Assembly: GCF_021284765.1 (NCBI RefSeq)
Contig: NZ_CP089924.1
Location: 633,501-697,500 of the forward strand
From: Lysobacter sp. 5GHs7-4
Lineage (GTDB): Bacteria > Pseudomonadota > Gammaproteobacteria > Xanthomonadales > Xanthomonadaceae
DNA length: 64,000 nt
Reading direction: 5' to 3'
The notes beneath the pieces are model-generated. The model searched no databases. It saw only the letters and a list, made by a program, of their open reading frames with translations, and had not been told where the DNA came from. Positions within the stretch are counted from its first letter, which is position 1. Every line of letters begins with the position of its first letter. The position numbers were made by a program, and so were the translations under genes. This document shows positions 21,533-37,010 of this stretch, piece by piece.

Positions 21533-21568
21533 TCGGGCCCGGAATGGGCGCGGGCTGGAGAGGTGGCG

Positions 21569-22036
21569 ATGCGTTCGTTGGCCATAGGGACCTTGTTGCT
21601 GGCGGTACCCGCCGCGGCCGCGCGCGAGCGCGCGTCGGCACCGCCGCCGTTGCCGATCGTGGCGATCGTCGAACAGCAAAAGCAGATCCGCGCCGACGAC
21701 ATCGCGCGCCGCGGCCGTTACGGCCAGCTGCCGCTGGCCACCCGCGCCGAGCTGATGACCAAGCAAGTGGAAATCCTCAGCCTGGTCGAGGACAAGGCCA
21801 GCACCGCCGAGCTGAGCCGGCGCGAGCAGGTGGAAGTGTTCAACCGCCTGGAATGGATCGAGGCCACGGTCAACGACACTGAGGACGAGCGCATGATCTG
21901 TCGGATCGAGCGCACCCTGGGCAGCAACCGCATGGTCCGCACCTGTCGCACCGTGGCCGACGAGCGCAAGGAAAAAGAGCGCGCCGGTCGCAGCCTGGAC
22001 CGTCGCCCGCGTCAGGTCGGCGGGCGGGAAATCTGA
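21569..22036 (+). CDS. Exported small protein, array copy 3
   Basis: A 155-residue member of the array. Its signal peptide is MRSLAIGTLLLAVPAAAARE. The core shows VEQQKQIRADDIARRGRYGQ, TRAELMTKQVEILSLVED, VFNRLEWIEATVNDTEDERM and a cysteine pair CRIERTLGSNRMVRTC. It is closer to copy 4 than to copies 1 and 5. The ATG at 21569 is chosen because GGAGAGG stands six bases before it; a GTG at 21563 lies within that spacing. The C-terminus is basic (RSLDRRPRQVGGRE). Confidence 0.8.
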   Translation: MRSLAIGTLLLAVPAAAARERASAPPPLPIVAIVEQQKQIRADDIARRGRYGQLPLATRAELMTKQVEILSLVEDKASTAELSRREQVEVFNRLEWIEATVNDTEDERMICRIERTLGSNRMVRTCRTVADERKEKERAGRSLDRRPRQVGGREI

Positions 22037-22056
22037 CGCGTTCCAGCGGGCTGAGA

Positions 22057-22090
22057 TTGTCGACGTATTTTTGGTGCCTTGCGTCGACAA
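22057..22090. promoter_or_regulatory. Inverted repeat TTGTCGACG / CGTCGACAA
   Basis: Perfect nine-base arms (22057-22065 and 22082-22090) flank a 16-base AT-rich spacer (TATTTTTGGTGCCTTG) between copies 3 and 4. Each arm holds a GTCGAC palindrome. It could be an operator for copy 4 or a weak terminator after copy 3. Confidence 0.4.
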
Positions 22091-22179
22091 ATTTTCCACG
22101 AAACTTGCCAATCGACAGAACCCCATGCCGCCGATAGCGTGATCCGGTCCGAATGAGCGGATGCGAAGGGGGCGAGTTC

Positions 22180-22638
22180 ATGCGTGGTTTGTTGTTGCTT
22201 GGCGTCTTGTGGCTGGCATCCACGGCTGCAGGCGCGGCCGATGCCGCTGGCCGTCCGCCGTTGGCGATCTCGGATATCACCGCCCAACAAACGCAGATCC
22301 GCGAGGATGTGATCGCGCAGCGCGGCCGCTACAAGGACATGCCGGCCGCCACCCGGGCCGACCTGCTGGCCAAGCAGGCCGAGGTGCTGGCGATGGTGGA
22401 GGGGAAAACCACCTCCGCCGAGCTCAGTCCGCACGAGCAGGTCGAGGTGTTCAATCGCCTGGAATGGATCGAGGCCGCGATCAACGACGCCGAGGACGAG
22501 CGCATGGTGTGTCGGCGCGAGAAAACCATCGGCAGCACGCGGCTGACCCGGGTCTGTCGCACCGCCGCGCAAGAGCGCGAGGCCCGCGACGCGGCCCGCG
22601 GGGCCTTGGATCGGGGCGATATTCAGAATCGCCGTTGA
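22180..22638 (+). CDS. Exported small protein, array copy 4
   Basis: A 152-residue member of the array. Signal peptide MRGLLLLGVLWLASTAAGAA; core ITAQQTQIREDVIAQRGRY, then KDMPAATRADLLAKQAEVL, VEVFNRLEWIEAAINDAEDE and the cysteine pair CRREKTIGSTRLTRVC. The ATG at 22180 follows AAGGGGGCGAG; an in-frame ATG at 22153 would put a charged stretch before the signal peptide and is less likely. Preceded by a 143-base spacer containing the GTCGAC inverted repeat. Confidence 0.8.
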   Translation: MRGLLLLGVLWLASTAAGAADAAGRPPLAISDITAQQTQIREDVIAQRGRYKDMPAATRADLLAKQAEVLAMVEGKTTSAELSPHEQVEVFNRLEWIEAAINDAEDERMVCRREKTIGSTRLTRVCRTAAQEREARDAARGALDRGDIQNRR

Positions 22639-22834
22639 GGCCGGATCGGGACGCGACACGCCCGCGCGGGACGGCGCCGGCGCCGTCCGGGCCGATCGGA
22701 AACCTGAACGCGCGAGCGCACGGATAAGCGGTGCCCGCAAGCATAAGACGGGCGTACGAACCGTGCCTACAGGCAGTCGACAGCGCCGATTCGGCAAAGT
22801 ACTTTCGGCAGTCCCAAATCCACGGACCGCTGTA

Positions 22835-23296
22835 ATGTCGATGAAGCATCTAGTTCTGGCCACGGTACTGACCTGCCTGCTCGCGCCCGCGGCGTACGCT
22901 TCGGCCGATCGCAAGGCGCTGCAGGCCGAGTCGATTCGCAGCCAGCAGGCGGAGATCCGCGCGGGCGTGGAAGCGCGCACCGGTCGTTACAAGGACTTGC
23001 CCGCCGGTACGCGTTCGGAGCTGCTGGCCAAGCAGAGCGAAGTGCTGCGCATGATCGACGGCAAGCAGTCCACCGACGAGCTGGACGAGAACCAGAAGGT
23101 CGAAGTGTTCAACGCGCTGGAATGGATCGAGGCCGCGATCAACAAGGCCGACGACGAACGCCTGGTCTGCGAGCGCCGCCCGGTGCTGGGCAGCACGCGC
23201 AAGGAGCGCGTGTGCAAGACCGTCGCGCAGATGCGCGACGAGCGCGAAGCCGCGCGCAGGAGCATGGACACGCACGGCGGCATCAAGACCAACTGA
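22835..23296 (+). CDS. Exported small protein, array copy 5
   Basis: A 153-residue member of the array. Signal peptide MSMKHLVLATVLTCLLAPAAYA; core SIRSQQAEIRAGVEARTGRY, TRSELLAKQSEVLRM, VFNALEWIEAAINKADDER and the cysteine pair CERRPVLGSTRKERVC. The start is either the ATG at 22835 or at 22841; no strong Shine-Dalgarno helps. A clear intrinsic terminator follows at 23320-23346 and closes the array. Confidence 0.8.
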   Translation: MSMKHLVLATVLTCLLAPAAYASADRKALQAESIRSQQAEIRAGVEARTGRYKDLPAGTRSELLAKQSEVLRMIDGKQSTDELDENQKVEVFNALEWIEAAINKADDERLVCERRPVLGSTRKERVCKTVAQMRDEREAARRSMDTHGGIKTN

Positions 23297-25297: not shown

Positions 25298-25804
<507 letters not shown>

Positions 25805-26739
25805 AGCCGGAGTGCGCGGGACCGACGCGCGGACCTTCGCTGCGCGGCGGCCTGCCTCAGGCCGTCGTCCGAATCTCGGAAACGGTGCTTGCCTGTCGGC
25901 CGCTCGCGCCTTCGGGTGCCGCGGCGCCCGATTCCGCCATCGCGTGATTGCCTGTCGCGCCGCCATGAGGTCGTGCGACAGCCGCGTTGTCCTGAGCGAC
26001 CGATACGCCGCCGCGCGGTAACGACGCCGCGTTACCGCGGCGGCCGCAGCCCGGACGGTTCGCACCTATATATATGGAAGGCGACAGCGATCGCCGCCTC
26101 GTGCACAGGCATGCGCGCGCGTGGCGTCGAATGCCAGCTTTCGATTGGCACGACCGCGGGCCAGTCCGCCGCGGCGCCGTGATCCCGTGCGGCAACGCAG
26201 AGCCAAGCCATTCAATCACCTGCGCGCGCGCGATCCGGTGCGAGTGCGCGCAGCGATTGCGAGCGTATGCATTTTTCAATCGGCGTTGTGGGCGCGCATC
26301 CAGTCGCGATGTTCGTTTTTCTGCGTTCGAAGCGTGGGGAGATCGTCTTCGTTTTACGTACGCGCGCACGAACGCGCGCGCGAGAAATCCGCGTTCGCGC
26401 AATGCATCCAACCTTCGGCTGTGAGTTCTCATCTTGCATTGCAACAAGCGCGAACGCGTTCGCGTGCGCATGGTGCGCGGCGAGCGCGCTAGGCGGAATT
26501 GCGTGAATGGCGCGATATGTCGCTTGTTTTCAGCGATTTGAGATGCGTGCACGCATTCGCGCGATGCGCGTGTCGATCAACGCGATAAAAATTTTCGTTC
26601 ACGATCTCTTGACATCGCGAATCCGTCTTCATTAGGTTCCATCGGCCCGCGTAGCGTCGCGCGCGCACACATGGATGCGAAGTGGGCAGGATCCGTCGTC
26701 GTCCGACGGCGGAAGTTCAATACACAAGGAGAGTCGAAC
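25805..26739. other. Gene-free 0.9 kb upstream of the lanthipeptide cluster
   Basis: No convincing gene is present. Base use changes here. There are runs of alternating purine-pyrimidine (CGCGCGCG and GCGCGCGCACGAACG, mostly 26105-26420), a TATATATA at about 26068, and from about 26260 to 26640 clearly more A/T than in the core genes. Open frames on either strand translate to Arg/Ala/Ser-rich sequence without domains. The last 130 bases hold the likely promoter and leader of the lanthipeptide precursor. The change is consistent with a boundary of acquired DNA. Confidence 0.6.
26609..26638 (+). promoter_or_regulatory. Candidate promoter of the lanthipeptide precursor
   Basis: A perfect TTGACA (26609-26614) is followed after 18 bases by TAGGTT (26633-26638). 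Transcription would start near 26645, leaving a leader of about 95 bases before the precursor ATG. The -10 match is modest, so this is a candidate only. Confidence 0.4.
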
Positions 26740-26886
26740 ATGGATATGATCCTGTCTCTGCAGGCGATGGAAGTCGAAACCGATTCCGCCGCCGGCAACA
26801 GCGGCGCCAGCGTCAACTGCACCTCGGGCAGCTCGGTGAGCAATCACTGCGGCGGCCAGCAGACGAAGGTCGAAGCCGCGTTCTAA
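26740..26886 (+). CDS. lanA: Class III lanthipeptide precursor
   Basis: A 48-residue peptide starting MDMILSLQAMEVETDSAAG. The ILSLQAMEVE segment matches the ILxLQ leader motif recognised by class III LanKC enzymes (compare SapB and labyrinthopeptin precursors, from memory). The core after about residue 19 contains S21-x2-S24-x2-C27 and S29-x2-S32-x4-C37, the two motifs expected for labionin or paired lanthionine rings. A hydrophilic tail GGQQTKVEAAF ends the peptide. AAGGAGAG lies seven bases before the ATG; the alternative upstream start is not supported. The LanKC gene follows 97 bases later. The symbol is generic. Mature end points are not known. Confidence 0.88.
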   Translation: MDMILSLQAMEVETDSAAGNSGASVNCTSGSSVSNHCGGQQTKVEAAF

Positions 26887-26894
26887 TGCGGTCA

Positions 26895-26928
26895 GGCTGG
26901 CATCGGCTCCGCCGGTGCCAGCCCTTTC
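26895..26928 (+). terminator. Hairpin between precursor and synthetase genes
   Basis: GGCTGGCATCGG (26895-26906) pairs with CCGGTGCCAGCC (26912-26923) with one G-T wobble around CTCCG, followed by CTTTC. It lies eight bases after the precursor stop. Such a partial terminator or mRNA-stabilising stem would give more precursor than enzyme transcript. Confidence 0.6.
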
Positions 26929-26983
26929 GCCGGCGAGGATCGCCGGTTGAACGCTCAGCAACTGCACGCGAAAGGACTCGCAC

Positions 26984-29656
26984 ATGCTCTACACGCTCGT
27001 CGACCGGCGCTTCTTCGAAGACGTAGTCAACCTGGAATGGGAAGACACCTTCCAGCAAGCCGTGAGCGAGGCCCTACCCGAGCACTGGAACGCACGCCGC
27101 AACGGCGTCTGGCTGTCGGTGTCCTCGCCGCAGCACGTGTTCCCGCAGCAGGGTTTCAAGATCCATCTTTCCGGCACGCCTGCGTTGGCCAGCCAGATCA
27201 TCCGCGCCGCCGCGCCGGTTTGTTACGCGCACGACGTGCCGTTCAAGACCGCGCGCGATCCGCGCATGCTGTCGGTGATGGGCTCCAAGCACTACCCGCG
27301 CGGCTATGCGGGCAAGCTGATGACGGTGTACCCGGGCGACCAGGACGTCTTCCTGCGCCTGATCGACGCGCTGCACGTGGCCACCGACGGATTCGACGGG
27401 CCTTACATCCTGTCGGATCGGCGCTACAAGGACCGCGGCGTCGTCTACTACCGCTATGGCGAAATTCTGTCCAAGTCGCGCCTGACCATCGACGGCGGCA
27501 GCGCCAGCGATCTCACCGCGCCGGACGGGCAGCCTTATCGCGAGGAGCGCCTGCCGTACTTCCGCCTGCCGCCGTGGGTGACCGATCCGTTCGCCAACGA
27601 GCCGCGCCACCAGGGCGAGCATCTGCTCAACGACCGCTACCAGGTCGAGAAGGCGCTGACGTTCTCCAACGCCGGCGGCGTCTATCGCGCGCTCGATCGC
27701 CAGACCGGCGACACCGTGGTGCTGAAGGAGGCGCGCCCGCATACCGCGCACTTCCGCGCCGACTCGGTCGATATCGACGCCATCCATTTGCTCGAACACG
27801 AATACAACGTGCTGCGCCGGCTGGACGGCATCCCGGGCGTGGTCGCCGCGATCGAGATGTTCGGCCAGTGGGAACACCGCTACATGGTCGAAAGCCATGT
27901 GGTCGGCATGCCGCTGGCGCAGTTCCGCGCGCGCCACGACGTGTCGCTGCTGCCGTTCGACGGCGGCGAGGACACCGCGCGCACCTTCTGCCGCAAGTTC
28001 GCCGTCATCGCTTTGCAGCTGATCGACATCCTGCAGGCGATCCATGCGCGCGACGTGATCGTCGCCGATCTGTCGCCCAACAACATCCTGGTCGATCCGG
28101 ACACGCTGGCGGTGTGCCTGATCGATTTCGAGGGCGCGCACGCGCGCGACGCGGATCTGCCGGAAGCGTTCGCGGCGCAGTGGTCCACGCCGGGCTTCCG
28201 CCATCAGCGCCGCCAGCAGGAGCTGAAGCTGAGCACCGCCGACGACTGGTTCGGGCTGGGCATGGTGCTGTACAGCATGATCCTGCCGATGCAGTCGCTG
28301 TTCGACCTGGAAAAGCGCAACGTCGATGCGCTGCTGGACTGCCTGAGCGGCGTGGCCTCGCTGCCGGCGCAGGTGCCGCAGGCGATCCGCGCGTTGTGGG
28401 AGGCCGAACCGGAGACCGCGCGCGGCGCGTTCGAGCGCATCCGCGCTTACGGCGAACGCGAGGGCGCCGATCCCGAGCGAGTGCCGGCACCGCCCGCCGA
28501 GCTGCCCGCGGAAGATCTGCAGGAGCTGCTGCAGGGCATCGACGATTTCATCGACGCGGTCTGCCACCCGCAGCGTCAGGACCAGCTGTGGCCGGGCGAT
28601 CCGGAGATGTTCAACCGCAATCCGATCAGCCTGGCCTACGGCGCCGGCGGGCCGCTGCTGTACCGGGCCCTGCGCGGGCGCGAGTGCACGCCCGAACAGC
28701 GCGCCTGGTTCGACGCCAAGACCGAGCAGCCCGAGCGCCTGCCGCCGGGCCTGTACTCCGGGCTGGCTGGCGCGGCCTGCGTTTACCTGCGCCTGGGCGA
28801 TCCCGGCCGCGCCCTGCACCTGCTGGAATCGGCCTGCCAGTCGTCCCTGCTGGGCACCGACGCGTCGATCTTCCAGGGCGATGCCGGCGTGGCCATGGCC
28901 TGCCTGCAGCTGCACGCGGGCACCGGCGACGAGCGGGCGCTGCAGTGGGCGCACCGCCTCGGCGAGGGCCTGCTCGCGCAGGCGATCACCGACGAGGCCG
29001 GCACCCGTTGGCCCTCGCAGATGCAGCGCGGCGAGCACGTGCTGGGCTATGCCTACGGCGGCAGCGGCACCGCCCTGGCCCTGCTGTACCTGGGCCACAG
29101 CCTGGGCGACGCGCGCTACATCGACTGCGCGCGCCGGGCCATGGACACCGAGGTGTTGCACGCGATCGCCGGCGACGGCCCGCTGCGCTGGGCGCGCGCC
29201 GTCGGCCACAGCACCGACGAGCCCTACTGGCTGCACGGCGGCAGCGGCGTGGGCACGGCCCTTATCCGCTTCGCCGTCCTGTGCCAGGATGAGGGCTACG
29301 GACGATGGGCGCGGCAGGCGGCCGAAGGCTGCTACTGCCGATTCACGGTACTACCGGGCCAGGTCGAAGGAATGAGCGGCATCGGCGAATTCATGCTGGA
29401 TATGCACCAGTTGACCGGTGAGGCGGTGTACTTGGCGCGCGCGAACGCGCTGGCGCACAGCATCGGCCACTACCGCGTGCACGGGCAGCGCAGCATCGCG
29501 TTCCCGGGGCGCGGCCTGCTGCGGCTGAGCTGCGACCACGCCTACGGCGCCGCCGGCGTCGGCAGCTTCCTGCATCGTCTGCGCCACGGCGGCGAACGCC
29601 TGTTGCACGACCTGCCGCTGCTGCGCGCCAAACGCGCCGACGGACCGCGCCCATGA
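26984..29656 (+). CDS. lanKC: Class III lanthipeptide synthetase LanKC
   Basis: An 890-residue three-domain enzyme. Residues about 1-200 are the SpvC-like phospho-Ser/Thr lyase (HYPRGYAGKLMTVYPGD, ILSDRRYKDRGVVYYRYGEI). About 215-500 is a Ser/Thr-kinase-like domain (K248 in VVLKEARPH; catalytic loop VADLSPNN with D362; DFE at 381-383 in place of DFG). About 530-890 is a LanC-like cyclase (YAYGGSGTALALLYLGHS, YWLHGGSGVG with H751). The cysteine zinc ligands of true LanC (CHG) are not seen, which is the rule for class III. The domain order fits dehydration by phosphorylation-elimination and ring closure of the upstream precursor. AAAGGA precedes the ATG; the stop overlaps the next gene by ATGA. 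Confidence 0.93.
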   Translation: MLYTLVDRRFFEDVVNLEWEDTFQQAVSEALPEHWNARRNGVWLSVSSPQHVFPQQGFKIHLSGTPALASQIIRAAAPVCYAHDVPFKTARDPRMLSVMGSKHYPRGYAGKLMTVYPGDQDVFLRLIDALHVATDGFDGPYILSDRRYKDRGVVYYRYGEILSKSRLTIDGGSASDLTAPDGQPYREERLPYFRLPPWVTDPFANEPRHQGEHLLNDRYQVEKALTFSNAGGVYRALDRQTGDTVVLKEARPHTAHFRADSVDIDAIHLLEHEYNVLRRLDGIPGVVAAIEMFGQWEHRYMVESHVVGMPLAQFRARHDVSLLPFDGGEDTARTFCRKFAVIALQLIDILQAIHARDVIVADLSPNNILVDPDTLAVCLIDFEGAHARDADLPEAFAAQWSTPGFRHQRRQQELKLSTADDWFGLGMVLYSMILPMQSLFDLEKRNVDALLDCLSGVASLPAQVPQAIRALWEAEPETARGAFERIRAYGEREGADPERVPAPPAELPAEDLQELLQGIDDFIDAVCHPQRQDQLWPGDPEMFNRNPISLAYGAGGPLLYRALRGRECTPEQRAWFDAKTEQPERLPPGLYSGLAGAACVYLRLGDPGRALHLLESACQSSLLGTDASIFQGDAGVAMACLQLHAGTGDERALQWAHRLGEGLLAQAITDEAGTRWPSQMQRGEHVLGYAYGGSGTALALLYLGHSLGDARYIDCARRAMDTEVLHAIAGDGPLRWARAVGHSTDEPYWLHGGSGVGTALIRFAVLCQDEGYGRWARQAAEGCYCRFTVLPGQVEGMSGIGEFMLDMHQLTGEAVYLARANALAHSIGHYRVHGQRSIAFPGRGLLRLSCDHAYGAAGVGSFLHRLRHGGERLLHDLPLLRAKRADGPRP

Positions 29657-31257
29657 TCGTGCCGCCGCGCGTACGCACGCTGCTGGTCGCGCTGTTCCGC
29701 CAACACGGACGCGTGATGCTGGTGCTGCTGGCGTTCGCCACGCTGCAGACCGTGGTGTCCACCGCCGGCGATCCCTTGCTGATGAAATGGCTGATCGACA
29801 GCCTGGACGGCGGCAACCTGCGCCTGTTCATCACCATCGGCTGCAGCGCGGTGGCGTTCTACACCGCCACGCGCGTACTGGACTACGTCTACGTCATCAT
29901 CAAGACGCGGGTACGGCTGGCGGTGATGAGCGGCAACATGCGCAACTCGGCGCAGTTGTATTTCCGTCAGCCTTACGACGACATCCGCAAGCACGACAAC
30001 GGCTACTACCACGGCCGCATTCTCGACGAGTCCAAGGAAATGGCCGGCGTGCTGGACACGGCCATCGACATCTACCGCGCCATCGTCGGATTCGTCAGCG
30101 CGCTGGCGGTCTGTCTGTGGCTGTCCTGGCAGCTGGCGCTGGCGATCAGCCTGATCGTGCCGCTGCTGCTGTATCTGGCGCGCCGTTACAGCAAGCGCAT
30201 CTCGCAATCCAGCGCGGAAGTGCAGGAAACCGAGGCGCAGCTGCGCGATACGCTGGGCCAGCTGATCGGCAGCTACCGCCAGGTCAACACCGTGCCCGGC
30301 GTGCAGTTGCCGCACCGCGCGCTGGACGCGTCGTTGCAGCACAACGTCGATGCGCGCATGCGCGTGGCGCGGCATTCGTCGCTGTTCCAGATGGCCAGCG
30401 GCATCTCGCTGTCCTACGCCGAGATGGCCGTGCTGCTGGCCGCGGGCGTGGCGGTGATGGCCAAGCGCATCACCGTGGGCGGGCTTTTCAGTTTCATGAG
30501 CGCGTACTGGCGCGCGGTCAACGCGATCCAGCGCCTGATCGATCTGGCGCCGCAGCTCGCGCGGCTGGACGGCGTGGCCCAGCGCCTGGAAGAGTTCGCC
30601 CAGGCTGCGATCGCGCCGATGGACGAAGCGGCGGCCGCGCGGCCGCACGGTCCGGTGCGTTTCGACGGCGTCGATCTCGACATCGGCGAGCGCCGCCTGA
30701 TTTCGAACCTCAGCCTCACCCTGCAGCGCGGCCAGCGCCTGCTGATCGTCGGCGCCAACGGCAGCGGCAAGTCGACCCTGATCGACATGCTGTGCGGCTT
30801 CCGCGCGCCGCGCAGCGGCATCGTCTCGCTGCCGCCGCGCGGCGCGATCAGCTGCCAGTTCACCGAAGCCGGCTTCTTCCCCGGCAGCGTGCGCGACAAC
30901 CTGGAAGCCATGGCCGGCGAGCGCGTCGACGAATGGCTGCAGCGTTGCGACCTGGACACGGTGGCCGAACAGCAGCCGTACCTGCTGTCGGCCGGTCAGC
31001 AGCGCAAGCTGCAGATCGCGATGGCGCTGGCGCGCGAGGTCGACTACTACGTGTTCGACGAGCCGCTGGCCAACCTCGACGACGAGAGCCGTGGACGCTT
31101 CTTTTCGATGATCCTGCGCCATACCCAGGGCAAGACCCTGGTGGCGGTGATGCACGGCGACATCGAGCTGGCGCGGCATTTCGACCAGATCCTGGATTTG
31201 AACCGGCACGCGGCGCCGATGGTGCTGGCGCCGGACGTCGACGCGGCGGTGGCCTAG
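29653..31257 (+). CDS. ABC exporter of the lanthipeptide cluster (LanT-like)
   Basis: A 534-residue fused membrane and ATPase half-transporter. About five to six hydrophobic helices lie between residues 20 and 300. The nucleotide domain has Walker A (GANGSGKSTLIDML), signature LSAGQQRKLQIAMALAREVD and Walker B YYVFDEPLANLDD. The usual LSGGQ is LSAGQ. There is no N-terminal C39 peptidase, so the protein should export the peptide without cutting the leader. Overlap of four bases with lanKC (ATGA) shows tight coupling. The family plan matches class III lanthipeptide exporters. Confidence 0.88.
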   Translation: MIVPPRVRTLLVALFRQHGRVMLVLLAFATLQTVVSTAGDPLLMKWLIDSLDGGNLRLFITIGCSAVAFYTATRVLDYVYVIIKTRVRLAVMSGNMRNSAQLYFRQPYDDIRKHDNGYYHGRILDESKEMAGVLDTAIDIYRAIVGFVSALAVCLWLSWQLALAISLIVPLLLYLARRYSKRISQSSAEVQETEAQLRDTLGQLIGSYRQVNTVPGVQLPHRALDASLQHNVDARMRVARHSSLFQMASGISLSYAEMAVLLAAGVAVMAKRITVGGLFSFMSAYWRAVNAIQRLIDLAPQLARLDGVAQRLEEFAQAAIAPMDEAAAARPHGPVRFDGVDLDIGERRLISNLSLTLQRGQRLLIVGANGSGKSTLIDMLCGFRAPRSGIVSLPPRGAISCQFTEAGFFPGSVRDNLEAMAGERVDEWLQRCDLDTVAEQQPYLLSAGQQRKLQIAMALAREVDYYVFDEPLANLDDESRGRFFSMILRHTQGKTLVAVMHGDIELARHFDQILDLNRHAAPMVLAPDVDAAVA

Positions 31258-31383
31258 GCGATGTCGCGCATCGCGCCGCCGTTGCGCCGTTGGTCGCCGG
31301 GCGAGGGCATGCGCGCCCCGACGGGCCGCGCAATGAAAGGGGCGATGCGCTCGCCCGCGTACGTGGAGTAAAGGCAAGACCGC

Positions 31384-32631
31384 ATGGACATCCAGAAGCC
31401 CAAACCCAAACCCTCGCCGCGCCGCAAGCTGATCCTCGGCGTGGGCGGCGCCGCACTGCTGGTCGCGGTGCTGGGCGTGTTCAACCTGGGCAGCGCCTCG
31501 CCGTCGGTGGAGCGCAACGCGCTGTGGATCGACACCGCCCAGCGCGGCGACATGCTGCGCGAGATCCGCGCCAGCGGCACGCTGATCCCCAAGAACCTGC
31601 GCTGGATCGCCGCCGACACCACCGCGGTGGTGCAGGACGTGCTGGTCGAGGCCGGCGCCAAGGTCGAAGCCGACACGGTGATCCTGCGCCTGAGCAATCC
31701 CACCGTGCTGGCCACGCGCGAGAAAGCGCGCGCGGCGCTGGCCGGCGCGCAGGCCGAGATGGCGGCGCAGCGCAATGCACTGACCTCGCAACTGCTGGAT
31801 CAGCAGGCCGCGTTGGCCAAGGCCGAGTCGACTTACCAGATCAGCCAGATGCGCGCGCAGGCGCAGGAACGCGCCGAGGCCGCAGGCGTGATGTCGAAGC
31901 TGGAGGCCAGCCAGAGCCGCATCGTCGCCGATCAGGAGCGCGGACTGGTGCAGATCGAGCGCCAGCGCGTGGATGCGTTCCGCCAGAATCAATCCGCGCA
32001 GATGCAGGCCGCGCAGGCGCGTCGCGACGAGGCCGCCAGCGCGCTGGCGATCGCCGAGCAGGAGGCGCAGGCGCTGGAAGTGCGCGCGGGCATCGCCGGC
32101 ACCTTGCAGCAATTGAACGTCGAGCCCGGCCAGCGCGTCGAGGCGGGCGCGGCGCTGGCGCGGGTCGCGCGTCCGGACGAGTTGATCGCGCGCCTGCAGG
32201 TACCCGAGGTGCTGGCCAAGGATCTCAGCCTGGACCTGGCCGCGGCCGTCGATACCCATAACGGCGTGGTCCAGGGCCGCATCGCACGCATCGATCCGGC
32301 GGTGCGCAACGGCAAGGTCACCGTGGACGTGCATTTCGACCGCGCCCTGCCCAAGGGCGCGCGCCCGGACCTGTCGGTGGACGGACGCATCGTGTTGGAC
32401 AAGCTGCAGGACGTGCTCAGCATCGGCCGGCCCGCGCAGGCCATACCCGACGGCGCGTCGGAGTTGTTCGTGCTGCGCGCGGGCGACGACGTCGCGCGGC
32501 GCGTGCGGGTGACCTACGGCGCCGCGTCCAGCGAGCGCATCCAGGTGCGCAGCGGCCTGAACCCGGGCGATCAGGCGATCCTGTCCGACACCGCGCAATG
32601 GCAGCAGTACGACGAGCTGCGCCTGCAGTGA
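31384..32631 (+). CDS. HlyD/MacA-type periplasmic adaptor
   Basis: A 415-residue membrane-fusion protein. One N-terminal transmembrane helix (about residues 15-36) precedes a first lipoyl half (AADTTAVVQDVLVEAGAKVE), a long alpha-hairpin coiled coil (about 110-230, ALAGAQAEMAAQRNALTSQL and on), the second lipoyl half (GIAGTLQQLNVEPGQRVEAG) and beta-barrel. It would link an inner-membrane pump to an outer-membrane channel. It starts 126 bases after the exporter gene and is followed by a MacB-like ATPase and permease, making a tripartite efflux set without its own TolC. Confidence 0.9.
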   Translation: MDIQKPKPKPSPRRKLILGVGGAALLVAVLGVFNLGSASPSVERNALWIDTAQRGDMLREIRASGTLIPKNLRWIAADTTAVVQDVLVEAGAKVEADTVILRLSNPTVLATREKARAALAGAQAEMAAQRNALTSQLLDQQAALAKAESTYQISQMRAQAQERAEAAGVMSKLEASQSRIVADQERGLVQIERQRVDAFRQNQSAQMQAAQARRDEAASALAIAEQEAQALEVRAGIAGTLQQLNVEPGQRVEAGAALARVARPDELIARLQVPEVLAKDLSLDLAAAVDTHNGVVQGRIARIDPAVRNGKVTVDVHFDRALPKGARPDLSVDGRIVLDKLQDVLSIGRPAQAIPDGASELFVLRAGDDVARRVRVTYGAASSERIQVRSGLNPGDQAILSDTAQWQQYDELRLQ

Positions 32632-32725
32632 GGCGCGCATCCCGCCATCACCCCATCGCCGCGGGCCCGCGCCCGCGACCCACGGCGCAGTGACGCGCCG
32701 TTTCCACGACAGCCCAGGACGGACC

Positions 32726-33487
<762 letters not shown>

Positions 33488-33494
33488 GGCGCAC

Positions 33495-35939
33495 ATGGCG
33501 ACCAAACCCGACGTGCTGCTGGCCGAAGTCGCGCAGGCCTGGCGCAACCTGATCCGCAAGCCCGCCTTCCTGCTGCTGGCCGCGGGCACGCTGGCGCTGG
33601 GCATCGCGACCACGGCGGCGGTGTTCAGCCTGCTCGACCAGGCCTTGCTGCGGCCGCTGCCGTTTGCGCAGGCCGATCGCCTGGTCACCGCCGGCATGAA
33701 GCAGGACGGCGACAGCAACATCGGCGCGCCGGCCTTGTACCAGCGTCTGCAGGGCGCGCAGGGCGTGGCCGCGCTGGGCCTGGTGTCGGCGCAGCCGCGC
33801 AGCGCCAATCTCTCTGGCGAAGGCGTAGCGGTGGTGGGCACCTTGCTCAGCGCCGATCGCGGCTTCCTCGATACGCTGGCGCTGCCGATGGCGGTGGGCC
33901 GCAACTTCAACGCCCAGGAGGACCGCGTCGACGGCGTGCCGGCGGTGATCCTCAGCCATGCTTTCTGGATGACGCGTTACGGCGGCAACCCGGCGATCGC
34001 GGGGCAGACTCTGCGTGTGGAAGGCAAGCCGATGACGGTGGTCGGCGTGCTGCCCGAGCGCTTCGCCTGGCCGCAGCGCTTCGACCTGCTTGCGCCGATG
34101 CAGCTGGCCGCCGACAGCAGCAACACCGGCACCAACGAATACATCGTCGCGCGCCTGAACGACGGCGTCGCGGTAAGTGCATTCGCCGATCAGGTCGACG
34201 CGCGCATCCGCGCCGCGTTGCCGGCGCTGCGCGGGCAGATCGGCGAGGACGGGTTCCGCTACCTGCAGCAGCAGAGCTACGACGCGCGACCCCTGATCGG
34301 GCTGTACACCGGCGCCTCCGGCTCGACCCTGTGGTTGTTCTTCGGCGCCGCCCTGTGCGTGCTGCTGATCGCGGCGATCAACCTGACCAATCTGATGGTG
34401 CTGCGCTCGATCGCGCGCAGCCACGACATGGCGGTGCGCGCGGCGATGGGTGCGCCGGCTTTGCGTCTGGCGCTGCCGGCCTTGGCCGAGGGCGCGCTGG
34501 TCGGCTTGCTGGGCAGCGCGATCGGCATGCTGCTGGCCTGGCTGGGCCTGCGCCTGCTCGGCGGCCTGGTGCCGCCGGAGTGGTTGCGCGGCGCCGATGT
34601 CGGCTTCACCGCAATGGGCGCGGTGTTCGCGCTGGTAGCGGGCGCGGCGGTGGCCTTGCTGGCGGCCGGGCTGAGCGTGTGGCGCGGCCGCTATGCGCAG
34701 CTCGGGCGCGAACTGGTCGGCGGCGGCCGCACCGGCTGGAGCCGCGCCGCGAGCCGCCTGGGCCGGGTGCTGGTGATCGCCCAGACCACGGTGGCGGTGG
34801 TGCTGCTGATCGGTGCGGCCTTGTTCGCGCGCAGCGTGCTGGCGCTGGCCTCGGTGCCGATGGGGTTCCAGAGCGCGTCGGTGGCGACGTTCTCGCTGTC
34901 GCCGGTGCGCGAGAGCCACCCCGATCTGCGCGCGGTCGAGGATCTGAGCCGGCGCCTGAGCGAACGCTTGCAACAGCTGCCCGGCGTCGAGCGCGTGGCG
35001 GTGTCCACCAACCTACCCACCGGTTCGCAACTCAATCTGCCCGCGACCCTGGCCGACGGCCAGACGGTGTCGCCCCAGTACCGGCCGGTGAGCCCGGGCT
35101 TCGATCAGGTGTTCGGCATTCCGGTGGTGTCCGGGCGCGGCCTCACCGCGCAGGACAGCGCCGGTGCCGAGCCGGTGTGCGTGGTCAGCGCCGCGTTCGC
35201 GCGCCAGTACCTGGGCGCGCAGCCGATCGGTGCGGTGGTGCGCAGCCTGGCCGACGCCGATGGCGCCTTGCTGGCGATGCGCGTGGTCGGCGTGGTCGGC
35301 GACGTGCGTCAGTTCGGTCCGGACCAGCCGGCGCCGCCGGTGATCTACGTGCCGCTGGCGCAGATGCCGCCGGCGATCTGGACCCTGCTGCGCGATTTCG
35401 CGCCGCTGCGGTTCGCATTGCGCGTGCGCGGCGAGCCCGGCGCCTTCGAGGCCGGCATCCGCGCCGCGGTCGCCGAGGTCGAATCCACCCAGCCCATCGC
35501 CGAAGTGCTGCCGATGGCGGCGGTGGTGGCGGCCACCACCAGCACGCAGAAGTTGAACCTGCTGCTGGTGGGTGTGTTCGCGGCGATGGCGCTGCTGCTG
35601 GCCTGCGTGGGCCTGTACGCGGTGATGGCGGTGGCGGTGGCCGCGCGCCAGCACGAGTTCGGCATCCGCGCCGCCCTGGGCGCGCCGCCGCGGCGTCTGT
35701 TGCGGCTGGTGTTGAAGGAAGCCGCCTTGCAGGTCGCGATCGGTTCGCTGATCGGCGTGGCGATCGCGGTGTCCTTGTCGCAGGTGTTGCAGCGCTTCCT
35801 GTTCGGCGTCGGCGCCGCCGATCCGCTGGCGATAGGCGCGGTGCTGCTGGCGCTGTCGTTGGCCGGCTTGGCGGCGAGCCTGCCGCCCGCGTTGCGTGCT
35901 GCGCGCGTGCACCCGATGCGGGTGCTGCACGCGGATTGA
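33495..35939 (+). CDS. ADOP-type FtsX-fold ABC permease
   Basis: An 814-residue permease with two MacB-type periplasmic domains and about eight transmembrane helices: one near residue 30, three at about 280-395, one at about 425-445, and three at about 690-800. The second-half motif RQHEFGIRAALGAPPRRLLR mirrors SHDMAVRAAMGAPALRLALP in the first half, showing an internal duplication. This is the architecture called ADOP (duplicated orphan permease). With the ATPase and adaptor just upstream it likely forms a mechanotransmission pump like MacAB. In this setting it could give self-protection against, or export of, the lanthipeptide; that is inference from position. Confidence 0.88.
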   Translation: MATKPDVLLAEVAQAWRNLIRKPAFLLLAAGTLALGIATTAAVFSLLDQALLRPLPFAQADRLVTAGMKQDGDSNIGAPALYQRLQGAQGVAALGLVSAQPRSANLSGEGVAVVGTLLSADRGFLDTLALPMAVGRNFNAQEDRVDGVPAVILSHAFWMTRYGGNPAIAGQTLRVEGKPMTVVGVLPERFAWPQRFDLLAPMQLAADSSNTGTNEYIVARLNDGVAVSAFADQVDARIRAALPALRGQIGEDGFRYLQQQSYDARPLIGLYTGASGSTLWLFFGAALCVLLIAAINLTNLMVLRSIARSHDMAVRAAMGAPALRLALPALAEGALVGLLGSAIGMLLAWLGLRLLGGLVPPEWLRGADVGFTAMGAVFALVAGAAVALLAAGLSVWRGRYAQLGRELVGGGRTGWSRAASRLGRVLVIAQTTVAVVLLIGAALFARSVLALASVPMGFQSASVATFSLSPVRESHPDLRAVEDLSRRLSERLQQLPGVERVAVSTNLPTGSQLNLPATLADGQTVSPQYRPVSPGFDQVFGIPVVSGRGLTAQDSAGAEPVCVVSAAFARQYLGAQPIGAVVRSLADADGALLAMRVVGVVGDVRQFGPDQPAPPVIYVPLAQMPPAIWTLLRDFAPLRFALRVRGEPGAFEAGIRAAVAEVESTQPIAEVLPMAAVVAATTSTQKLNLLLVGVFAAMALLLACVGLYAVMAVAVAARQHEFGIRAALGAPPRRLLRLVLKEAALQVAIGSLIGVAIAVSLSQVLQRFLFGVGAADPLAIGAVLLALSLAGLAASLPPALRAARVHPMRVLHAD

Positions 35940-35959
35940 TCGTCGCTGGGGCGATGGCT

Positions 35960-36898
35960 TCAGCCGTTCGCCCGGCGGCGGTCCGCAGCCCGGGGCGCGT
36001 CGGCATCCAAGGCCAGGAACGCGCGCAAGGCCGGCGCTCGCGGCCGATTGGCCAGCTCCAGACGGAACAGCCGGCGGCTCGCGGCCTGGCCGCCGCCGGC
36101 GGGCGATAGCGCGCGCAGCCGGCCCATCGCCAACAGATCGGCGACCGCGGTTTCCGGCAGCAGCGCGATGCCCGCGCCGGCTGCGACGGCGCGCGCGATG
36201 GCTTCGTTGCTGCCGATCTCGATCGTGCGCGCGGGCGCGATGCCCTGCGCATCCAACCAGGCCTGCGCGGCCTGACGCGTGCCCGATCCCGGCTCGCGCA
36301 GCAGCCAGGTCTGCCGCGCCAGCGCGGCCGGCGACATGCGCTTCGCGCGCGCGGGCGTCGCCGCCCCTTCGACCGCGCCGATCAGGCACAGCGGTTCGGT
36401 CCGCCACAGCGAGGCCGCGATGCGGGCATCGTCCACTTCGCCCTCGACGTAGCCCACGTCGATGCGGCAGTCGACCAGCGCGCGGCTGATGTCGTCGGTG
36501 TTGCCGACCACCAGTTCCAGTTCCAGCGACGGGTGGCGGCGCGCGAACGCCGCGATCGTGCGCGGCAGCCAGTACGCGGCCACGGTGGTGCTGGCGCCGA
36601 TGCGCAGGCGGCCCTGGCGCAGTTCGACGCGGTCGCGCACATCCTCGCTGGCGGCGCGCTCCAGGGCGAAGATCGCGCGCGCGTGCTCGAACACGGCGCG
36701 GCCATGTTCGGTCAGCACCACGCCGCGCGGCGTCTTGCCGTCGGCGCCGCGCTCCACCAACGGCAGGTCTAGCTGATGTTCCAGCTCGCGCACGGCCTTG
36801 GACACGGCCGACTGGCTGACGAACAGCGCCTGCGCCGCGCGCGAGTAGCTCTGCGTCTCGACCACGGTCAGGAAGCTGCGCAGCAGGTGCAGGTTCAT
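35960..36898 (-). CDS. LysR-type regulator next to the YeiH exporter
   Basis: A 312-residue LysR protein. The helix-turn-helix is YSRAAQALFVSQSAVSKAVR, and the effector domain starts near residue 90 (GRLRIGASTTVAAYWLPRTI), of the CysB/CynR-like substrate-binding fold. The ATG at 36898 matches the usual N-terminus MNLHLLRSF; an ATG at 36916 would add six residues. It diverges from a YeiH-type exporter gene, an arrangement seen in many bacteria, so it most likely regulates that gene. It converges with the ADOP permease (20 bases between stops). Confidence 0.87.
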   Translation of the reverse strand: MNLHLLRSFLTVVETQSYSRAAQALFVSQSAVSKAVRELEHQLDLPLVERGADGKTPRGVVLTEHGRAVFEHARAIFALERAASEDVRDRVELRQGRLRIGASTTVAAYWLPRTIAAFARRHPSLELELVVGNTDDISRALVDCRIDVGYVEGEVDDARIAASLWRTEPLCLIGAVEGAATPARAKRMSPAALARQTWLLREPGSGTRQAAQAWLDAQGIAPARTIEIGSNEAIARAVAAGAGIALLPETAVADLLAMGRLRALSPAGGGQAASRRLFRLELANRPRAPALRAFLALDADAPRAADRRRANG

Positions 36899-37010
36899 GG
36901 CATGAGTCCAATTCATGAATTCTTGAATTATATGTATTGGACGCTAGTTCCGCGCCGGCCTAAGGTGGCGCCGATTTCGCCAGGCGCGCCGCGCGCCGGA
37001 GTGCACAGCC

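Follow-up and report, generated by a model that had tools for sequence, protein, structure and literature searches.

Does a Gram-negative bacterium of the genus Lysobacter carry a complete operon for a class III lanthipeptide, how far does this operon extend, and which rings would it produce? These questions are raised by a locus in the window, the stretch of 64,000 nucleotides analysed here, which is part of the single-contig 4.7-Mb genome of Lysobacter sp. 5GHs7-4. Class III peptides have been made from Bacillus and Myxococcus, and two class II peptides have been called the first characterised gammaproteobacterial lanthipeptides (partial text of PMC9576775). Among the open-licence literature matches listed and the partial texts, none described the chemical characterisation of a class III peptide from a gammaproteobacterium; making the peptide encoded here would therefore extend the class, which the genes alone do not do. 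The original prediction, made from the DNA letters, described a class III cluster that spans positions 26740 to 31257 and would be uncommon in gammaproteobacteria. Its class assignment is borne out by the precursor and the modifying enzyme LanKC, both of which exceed curated class III cut-offs. Judged from sequence comparisons, the locus looks like a functional operon for the biosynthesis of a class III lanthipeptide, and we assign a probability of about 0.9 to this reading, including the modification and export steps proposed below.

Six plus-strand genes, whose reading frames are all open (26740-35939), lie in a row between a gene that looks PII-like by its sequence and a convergent LysR gene. 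The start of the ABC gene overlaps the LanKC stop by 4 bases. The features are:

25409..25804, plus strand, PII-like gene, left flank, outside the cluster
26740..26886, plus strand, class III lanthipeptide precursor, 48 amino acids
26984..29656, plus strand, LanKC, 890 amino acids, with N-terminal phospho-Ser/Thr lyase, kinase and predicted zinc-free LanC-like cyclase
29653..31257, plus strand, peptidase-less ABC exporter, 534 amino acids
31384..32631, plus strand, periplasmic adaptor (HlyD/RND_mfp type) of a MacB-like exporter, probable cluster member
32690..33487, plus strand, MacB/LolD-type ABC ATPase, 265 amino acids, probable cluster member
33495..35939, plus strand, ADOP-type duplicated permease, 814 amino acids, partner of the ATPase, probable cluster member
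35960..36916, minus strand, LysR-type regulator (LysR_substrate, HTH_1), right flank, probably outside the cluster

The precursor gene starts with an ATG at 26740, upstream of which an AAGGAG was recognized by eye as a Shine-Dalgarno sequence, and ends at 26886. Its product has the predicted length of 48 residues and begins with MDMILSLQ, which contains the expected ILSLQ leader and places the LSLQ leader motif at residues 5-8; the leader is followed by a conserved core (approximately residues 19-39) and a variable tail (residues 40-48) that ends with Phe. The residues S21, S24, C27, S29, S32 and C37 were found where they had been predicted. The precursor passed the cut-offs of the NCBIfam class III lanthipeptide model NF038154 (25.4 bits, cut-off 22) and of Pfam RamS (25.3 bits, cut-off 24.3), and just missed those of the sister models NF038159 (28 bits, cut-off 30) and NF033212/NCBIfam SapB_AmfS (23.2 bits, cut-off 25). 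LanKC is adjoined by a precursor with an LxLQ-type leader and an SxxSx(2-5)C core. Protein searches yielded six further members of its clade, P0001-P0004, P0125 of L. silvestris and P0126 of a Lysobacter metagenome-assembled genome (MAG); P0003 (Luteimonas) and P0126 are named class III lanthipeptides by NCBI, and P0125 is named a hypothetical protein. In an alignment of six sequences, comprising the own precursor, P0001-P0004 and that of L. silvestris, M1, L5, S6, L7, Q8 and E11 are invariant on the leader side, G19, N20, S21, G22, S24, C27, T28 and S29 in the core, and S31, V33, S34, C37, G38 and G39 at its end. P0126, which was compared afterwards, fits this alignment after one additional leader residue, and S21, S24, C27, T28, S29, S31, S34 and C37 are kept in all seven clade precursors, one of which has them displaced by a single position. 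The core hardly changes among six of the seven, the L. silvestris core departing from the own core at 7 of 21 places, and residues 9-18 and 40-48 vary. Since residues 19-48 contain eight Ser/Thr and T28 and S29 are invariant in 7/7 precursors, the loss of water may exceed the four molecules that were expected earlier. The tails past the last ring Cys (26857-26886 in the window) vary in sequence; Phe is the last residue in all seven members of the own clade, and the precursors of loci L042, L043, L050 and L054-L057 end with Ala-Val. This tail might act as a follower or as a tag for a protease.

LanKC was predicted to be a complete lyase-kinase-cyclase. It matches NF038151 with 678 bits (cut-off 575) and the class IV model with 571.8 bits, below the cut-off of 650 of that model, and contains the Pfam domains RamC_N, Pkinase and LANC_like. 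All 13 solved-structure matches are LanKC-type or kinase-domain proteins and include ThurKC of Bacillus thuringiensis (8sao, 8sap, 8sam) and SalKC (9ugq). The three zinc-ligand Cys positions of 8car, which we take to be a class IV enzyme and whose database title says only serine/threonine protein kinase, align with L750, V794 and E795 of LanKC, and the cyclase is therefore read as a class III, metal-free one. Furthermore, 14 residues with roles in the lyase or kinase reaction of ThurKC were taken from the partial text of PMC10604976 and compared in an alignment to 8sao, in which the index plus 3 gives the numbering of the paper. Thirteen of them are identical, namely the lyase residues K59, H61, K88, K102, K111, D145, R157 and R189 (K65, H67, K94, K108, K117, D152, R163 and R191 in ThurKC) and the kinase residues K248, E273 and D381-F382-E383 (K257, E279, D382, F383 and E384); the single mismatch is L269, the counterpart of R275. 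The ThurKC/andalusicin system shares the architecture, the LxLQ-type leader and the zinc-free cyclase with the system described here (partial text of PMC10604976), but ThurKC is distant in sequence (phmmer, 196 bits from the own LanKC to 8sao). Moreover, the ThurA1 product carries 11 dehydrations and one labionin region near its terminal Cys (partial text of PMC10604976), whereas the own core has two Cys motifs.

These twin motifs are S21-x2-S24-x2-C27 and S31-x2-S34-x2-C37, ten residues apart. The first was predicted correctly; the second had been placed at S29-x2-S32-x4-C37. Scored by Cys, S-x2-S-x2-C is found at both Cys residues in all seven clade precursors, whereas S-x2-S-x4-C at the second Cys is found in six and is absent from the L. 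silvestris orthologue, in which codon 32 encodes Gly. S29-x2-S32-x4-C37 was thus rejected as the first-choice second motif, and the rings are better read as two identical SxxSxxC units, the second one at S31/S34/C37. This revision hangs on one intact orthologue, that of L. silvestris, plus a degenerate remnant in genome G015, in which SxxSxxC also lies ahead of the second Cys, because the six sequences with S-x2-S-x4-C are alike there. When residues 19-48 were shuffled 100,000 times, two non-overlapping SxxSx(2-5)C motifs appeared in 269 cases and two SxxSxxC motifs in 22. The reverse order C-x-S-x2-S is present as C27-x-S29-x2-S32 in 6/7 clade precursors and absent in L. silvestris; given this motif, other ring patterns are possible. 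SapB/AmfS (RamS) and labyrinthopeptin of actinomycetes share the twin S-x2-S-xn-C pattern with the own precursor; SapB and labyrinthopeptin presumably have three residues before the Cys, compared to two here, and the SapB system presumably has ABC export genes, as is the case here. Unlike SapB and labyrinthopeptin, the own peptide is encoded in a Gram-negative host, has a tail after the last Cys and lies next to a MacB-like module.

The gene downstream of LanKC had been described as an exporter without a peptidase, and its product matches ABC_membrane and ABC_tran (Pfam) without a C39 peptidase match at E 0.001. In L. silvestris (Lysobacter/Solilutibacter), an ABC gene 53% identical to it likewise adjoins LanKC. 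The predicted extent of the cluster holds for these core genes; its right end probably lies farther downstream. The next three genes encode, side by side, a MacAB/ADOP-type exporter: the adaptor exceeds the cut-off of TIGR01730 (102.2, cut-off 94.9), the ATPase matches ABC_tran and, as its best NCBIfam match, DarD with 240.3 bits, under the cut-off of 375 (its start is a GTG at 32690, the exact start being uncertain), and the permease is marginally under the cut-off of TIGR03434 (ADOP; 616.4 bits, cut-off 622.3) and has two stretches each of MacB_PCD and FtsX. Twenty genomes of the genus, own included, were searched at maximum E values of 1e-60 for LanKC and 1e-80 for the permease. LanKC is present in eight, the permease in eight, and an adaptor with at least 50% identity in the same eight genomes as the permease. 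LanKC and the MacB-like module occur together in seven of the 20, within ~2.2 kb of each other in each; the module is thus found in 7/8 LanKC-bearing versus 1/12 LanKC-free genomes (one-sided Fisher p 0.0008, a value that ignores kinship among the genomes). For this reason, the adaptor, the ATPase and the ADOP permease probably belong to the cluster as well, which would then end at 35939. G161 has LanKC without the module and G151 the module without LanKC; no RiPP enzyme was found among six proteins scanned near the G151 module, whose neighbours have restriction-modification and sensor-kinase domains.

According to the pathway we propose, LanKC would bind the ILSLQ leader, its kinase domain would phosphorylate Ser/Thr residues of the core, and its lyase domain would eliminate the phosphate to give dehydroamino acids. 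The metal-free cyclase would then add Cys27 and Cys37 to Dha24 and Dha34, thereby forming two small rings, which could end as lanthionines or extend to labionins via Dha21 and Dha31. The product would be moved over the inner membrane by the peptidase-less ABC protein, its leader and perhaps also the variable tail would be trimmed by a protease encoded elsewhere, and the MacB-like adaptor, ATPase and ADOP permease might carry it from the periplasm to the outside of the cell or protect the producer. In the andalusicin/ThurKC system, the leader proteases are a known M16B pair (partial text of PMC10604976). There is no protease gene inside the cluster; protease domain matches in the genome comprise two of the prolyl-oligopeptidase type, two M1 and eight M16, one of the latter elsewhere in the window, and as none of these lies in the cluster, no candidate for the leader protease was singled out.

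The LysR gene has a match in 20/20 genomes of the genus, with or without LanKC, and the PII-like gene lies within ~0.5 kb of it in 15/20, so that the site between the two is empty or nearly so in these genomes. It is or was occupied in five: in the window, G015, G161, G150 and G151. The cluster was probably gained between the PII-like and LysR genes. With a GC3 of 0.90-0.92, the five large genes match their flanks, and composition therefore gives no evidence of a recent transfer. In G161 (L054/L135), a LanKC from a different branch likewise occupies the PII-LysR interval, and G150 (L136) and G151 (L137) have other inserts of ~4-5 kb at this site. The interval, 25804-35960 in the window, is an insertion hotspot in the genus, with two LanKC clusters of different branches.

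Three alternatives have to be weighed against parts of this reading. The precursor may acquire two plain lanthionines and additional dehydroamino acids but no labionin, with enzyme and peptide unchanged, and we rate this only slightly below an even chance. SxxSx(2-5)C is a class III motif that gives labionin or lanthionine (partial text of PMC11251773), and the same is true for Sx2Sx3C (partial text of PMC7268733), so plain lanthionine is a precedented outcome of this type of motif. In addition, the two residue pairs of ThurKC that are tied to labionin lack sequence conservation across the enzymes that make it (partial text of PMC10604976), and for this reason the sequence cannot decide between labionin and lanthionine. 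On the other hand, S21/S24 and S31/S34 are kept in 7/7 clade precursors, which is more than one lanthionine per Cys requires.

The other two alternatives concern the MacB-like module and the state of the whole cluster. The module (31384-35939) could be an unrelated pump for envelope stress or peptide detoxification that adjoins the cluster by chance. The adaptor is found in 34/149 family genomes at E 1e-60, and genomes of other genera carry adaptors of 58-62% identity at sites with no LanKC nearby. Seven such loci were read, out of 31 adaptor-bearing family genomes outside the genus, and in six of them the permease is followed by response regulator-like and sensor kinase-like genes (L131 is unclear). 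This pair was also found by tblastn in L096 and, next to LanKC, in L046 and L053; in the window, it gave no tblastn match at a threshold of 90 bits. Among eight sampled LanKC genomes outside the genus, the module lies near LanKC in one, L. silvestris (G046), where it is convergent, ~2.4 kb from LanKC and, unlike in the window, accompanied by the regulator and kinase genes; G013, G058 and G111 have the adaptor elsewhere in the genome, and in the remaining four the adaptor search was negative at E 1e-60. The 20-kb stretches L047, L048 and L054 contain MacB-type genes that are more remote, with 49-54% identity for the ATPase and 25-29% for the adaptor or permease. The link between LanKC and the module is thus weak outside the genus, and the idea of a LanKC-specific exporter is weakened, because the module is common there without LanKC. 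Chance adjacency is nevertheless unlikely in view of the association within the genus, the more so as none of the other six clusters with the module lies at the PII-LysR site and as the LanKCs involved belong to three tree groups (the placement of the third, L053, on a long branch, is unsure, and G090 is outside the tree). In our reading, a widespread regulated efflux module may have been adopted into the lanthipeptide clusters of this genus for export or self-protection. It is rather improbable, to a slightly greater degree than chance adjacency, that the cluster is intact but silent or being lost, as in the congener G015. There, the left flank is 92% and the right flank 84% identical, ~9 kb from LanKC to the permease is missing, and a remnant (L052:9746-9874; 26833-35818 in the window) consists of a precursor piece fused to the final codons of the ADOP permease gene. 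Silence or loss would also agree with the 12/20 genus genomes without LanKC and with the sole promoter-like match in 25800-27000, which overlaps the start codon of the precursor (one match compared to 0.3 expected; two terminator-like matches compared to 1.3 expected; an Rfam scan gave no match). However, the frames are open, GC3 resembles the flanks, and six of the seven clade precursors have almost the same core, all of which argues against this alternative.

The expectation that such a cluster would be uncommon in gammaproteobacteria was not upheld. LanKC is full-length or nearly so (at least 540 bits) in 11 of 149 sampled family genomes, eight of them above the NF038151 cut-off, and LanKC is present in 8/20 genomes of the genus; the own genome is part of both counts. 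Database proteins named LanKC exist in Luteimonas, Solilutibacter, Idiomarina, Pseudoalteromonas and Shewanella, and the name that NCBI gives the Luteimonas precursor orthologue also contradicts rarity. So do printed reports: mining of 24 Lysobacter genomes yielded eight class III clusters with three unique precursors (partial text of PMC11451712), and a lanKC cluster is listed for L. capsici 55 and for L. enzymogenes CX03 (partial text of PMC9410377). The CX03 region is given there as 3,031,820-3,054,549, and the LanKC of congener G159 (3041886-3044519) falls in its middle. Sixteen LanKC loci were compared, the own and 15 from the family and genus sets; each has an ORF with an LxLQ-like N-terminus close to LanKC, and ten have a precursor with two Cys fitting SxxSx(2-5)C (own, L042, L043, L045, L046, L050, L051, L053, L054 and L057; L043 and L057 are identical, and L053 carries a second precursor with one such motif). 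One fitting Cys is present in L044 and none in L047, L048, L049, L055 and L056. Beside LanKC, L047:7568-7693, L048:8063-8188 and L049:11567-11686 encode precursors with C-x-S-x2-S replacing S-x2-S-xn-C, a reverse labionin-like order described for Streptomyces (partial text of PMC11251773).

In a LanKC tree of 30 rows, from which L045 (stop), L050 (two frames) and L046 (same as P0012) were left out, P0006 and the enzymes of L. silvestris, Luteimonas and the Lysobacter MAG form one group with the own LanKC (100/100), to which none of the six other LanKCs of the genus in the tree belongs. Seven congeners have LanKCs with 33-35% identity to the own one, less than those of Longimicrobium (44%) and a Streptomyces (42%), which suggests that LanKC was gained more than once in the family. 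The LanKC of L050 (9318-11968, genome G090) is split over two overlapping reading frames and is probably for this reason frameshifted or mis-assembled. Four clusters in the genus whose precursors end with -AV (L043, L050, L054 and L057) share LanKC, the LxLQ leader and, in 3/4, the MacB-like module with the window. They differ by two SxxSxxxC motifs, with a spacing of three residues compared to two here, by one or two more Cys, and by LanKCs 30-35% identical to the own one, three of which form a separate branch in the tree (L050 being left out).

The cluster is a new representative of a known kind, and genera nearby have closely related ones. L. silvestris, Luteimonas sp. Y-2-2-4F and the Lysobacter sp. 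MAG have LanKCs 49-53% identical to the own one and the same twin SxxSxxC motifs, and their precursors differ from the own precursor in the middle of the leader and in the tail. Five clade precursors, matched to LanKCs through contigs of equal length, pair with enzymes of only 49-53% identity to the own one, and the near-frozen core (6/7 clade precursors) spans at least Lysobacter and Luteimonas, at about half identity of LanKC. It is tempting to speculate that the peptide carries two identical compact S-x2-S-x2-C labionin bicycles and a removable C-terminal tail, is exported in two steps by the ABC protein and a recruited MacB-like module, and could become the first class III peptide produced from a gammaproteobacterium, although this combination is doubtful as a whole. 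If it were true, the near-absence of change in the core would suggest a single conserved target or receptor. With its complete-looking operon, the locus lends itself to compact tests of class III chemistry in a Gram-negative bacterium, for which orthologues suggest the important Ser residues and one related species has lost the cluster. Elsewhere in the window, the plus strand of 21563-23296 encodes three tandem small proteins (157, 161 and 177 amino acids), which are visibly related and have signal-peptide-like starts; G015 has repeats that match them.
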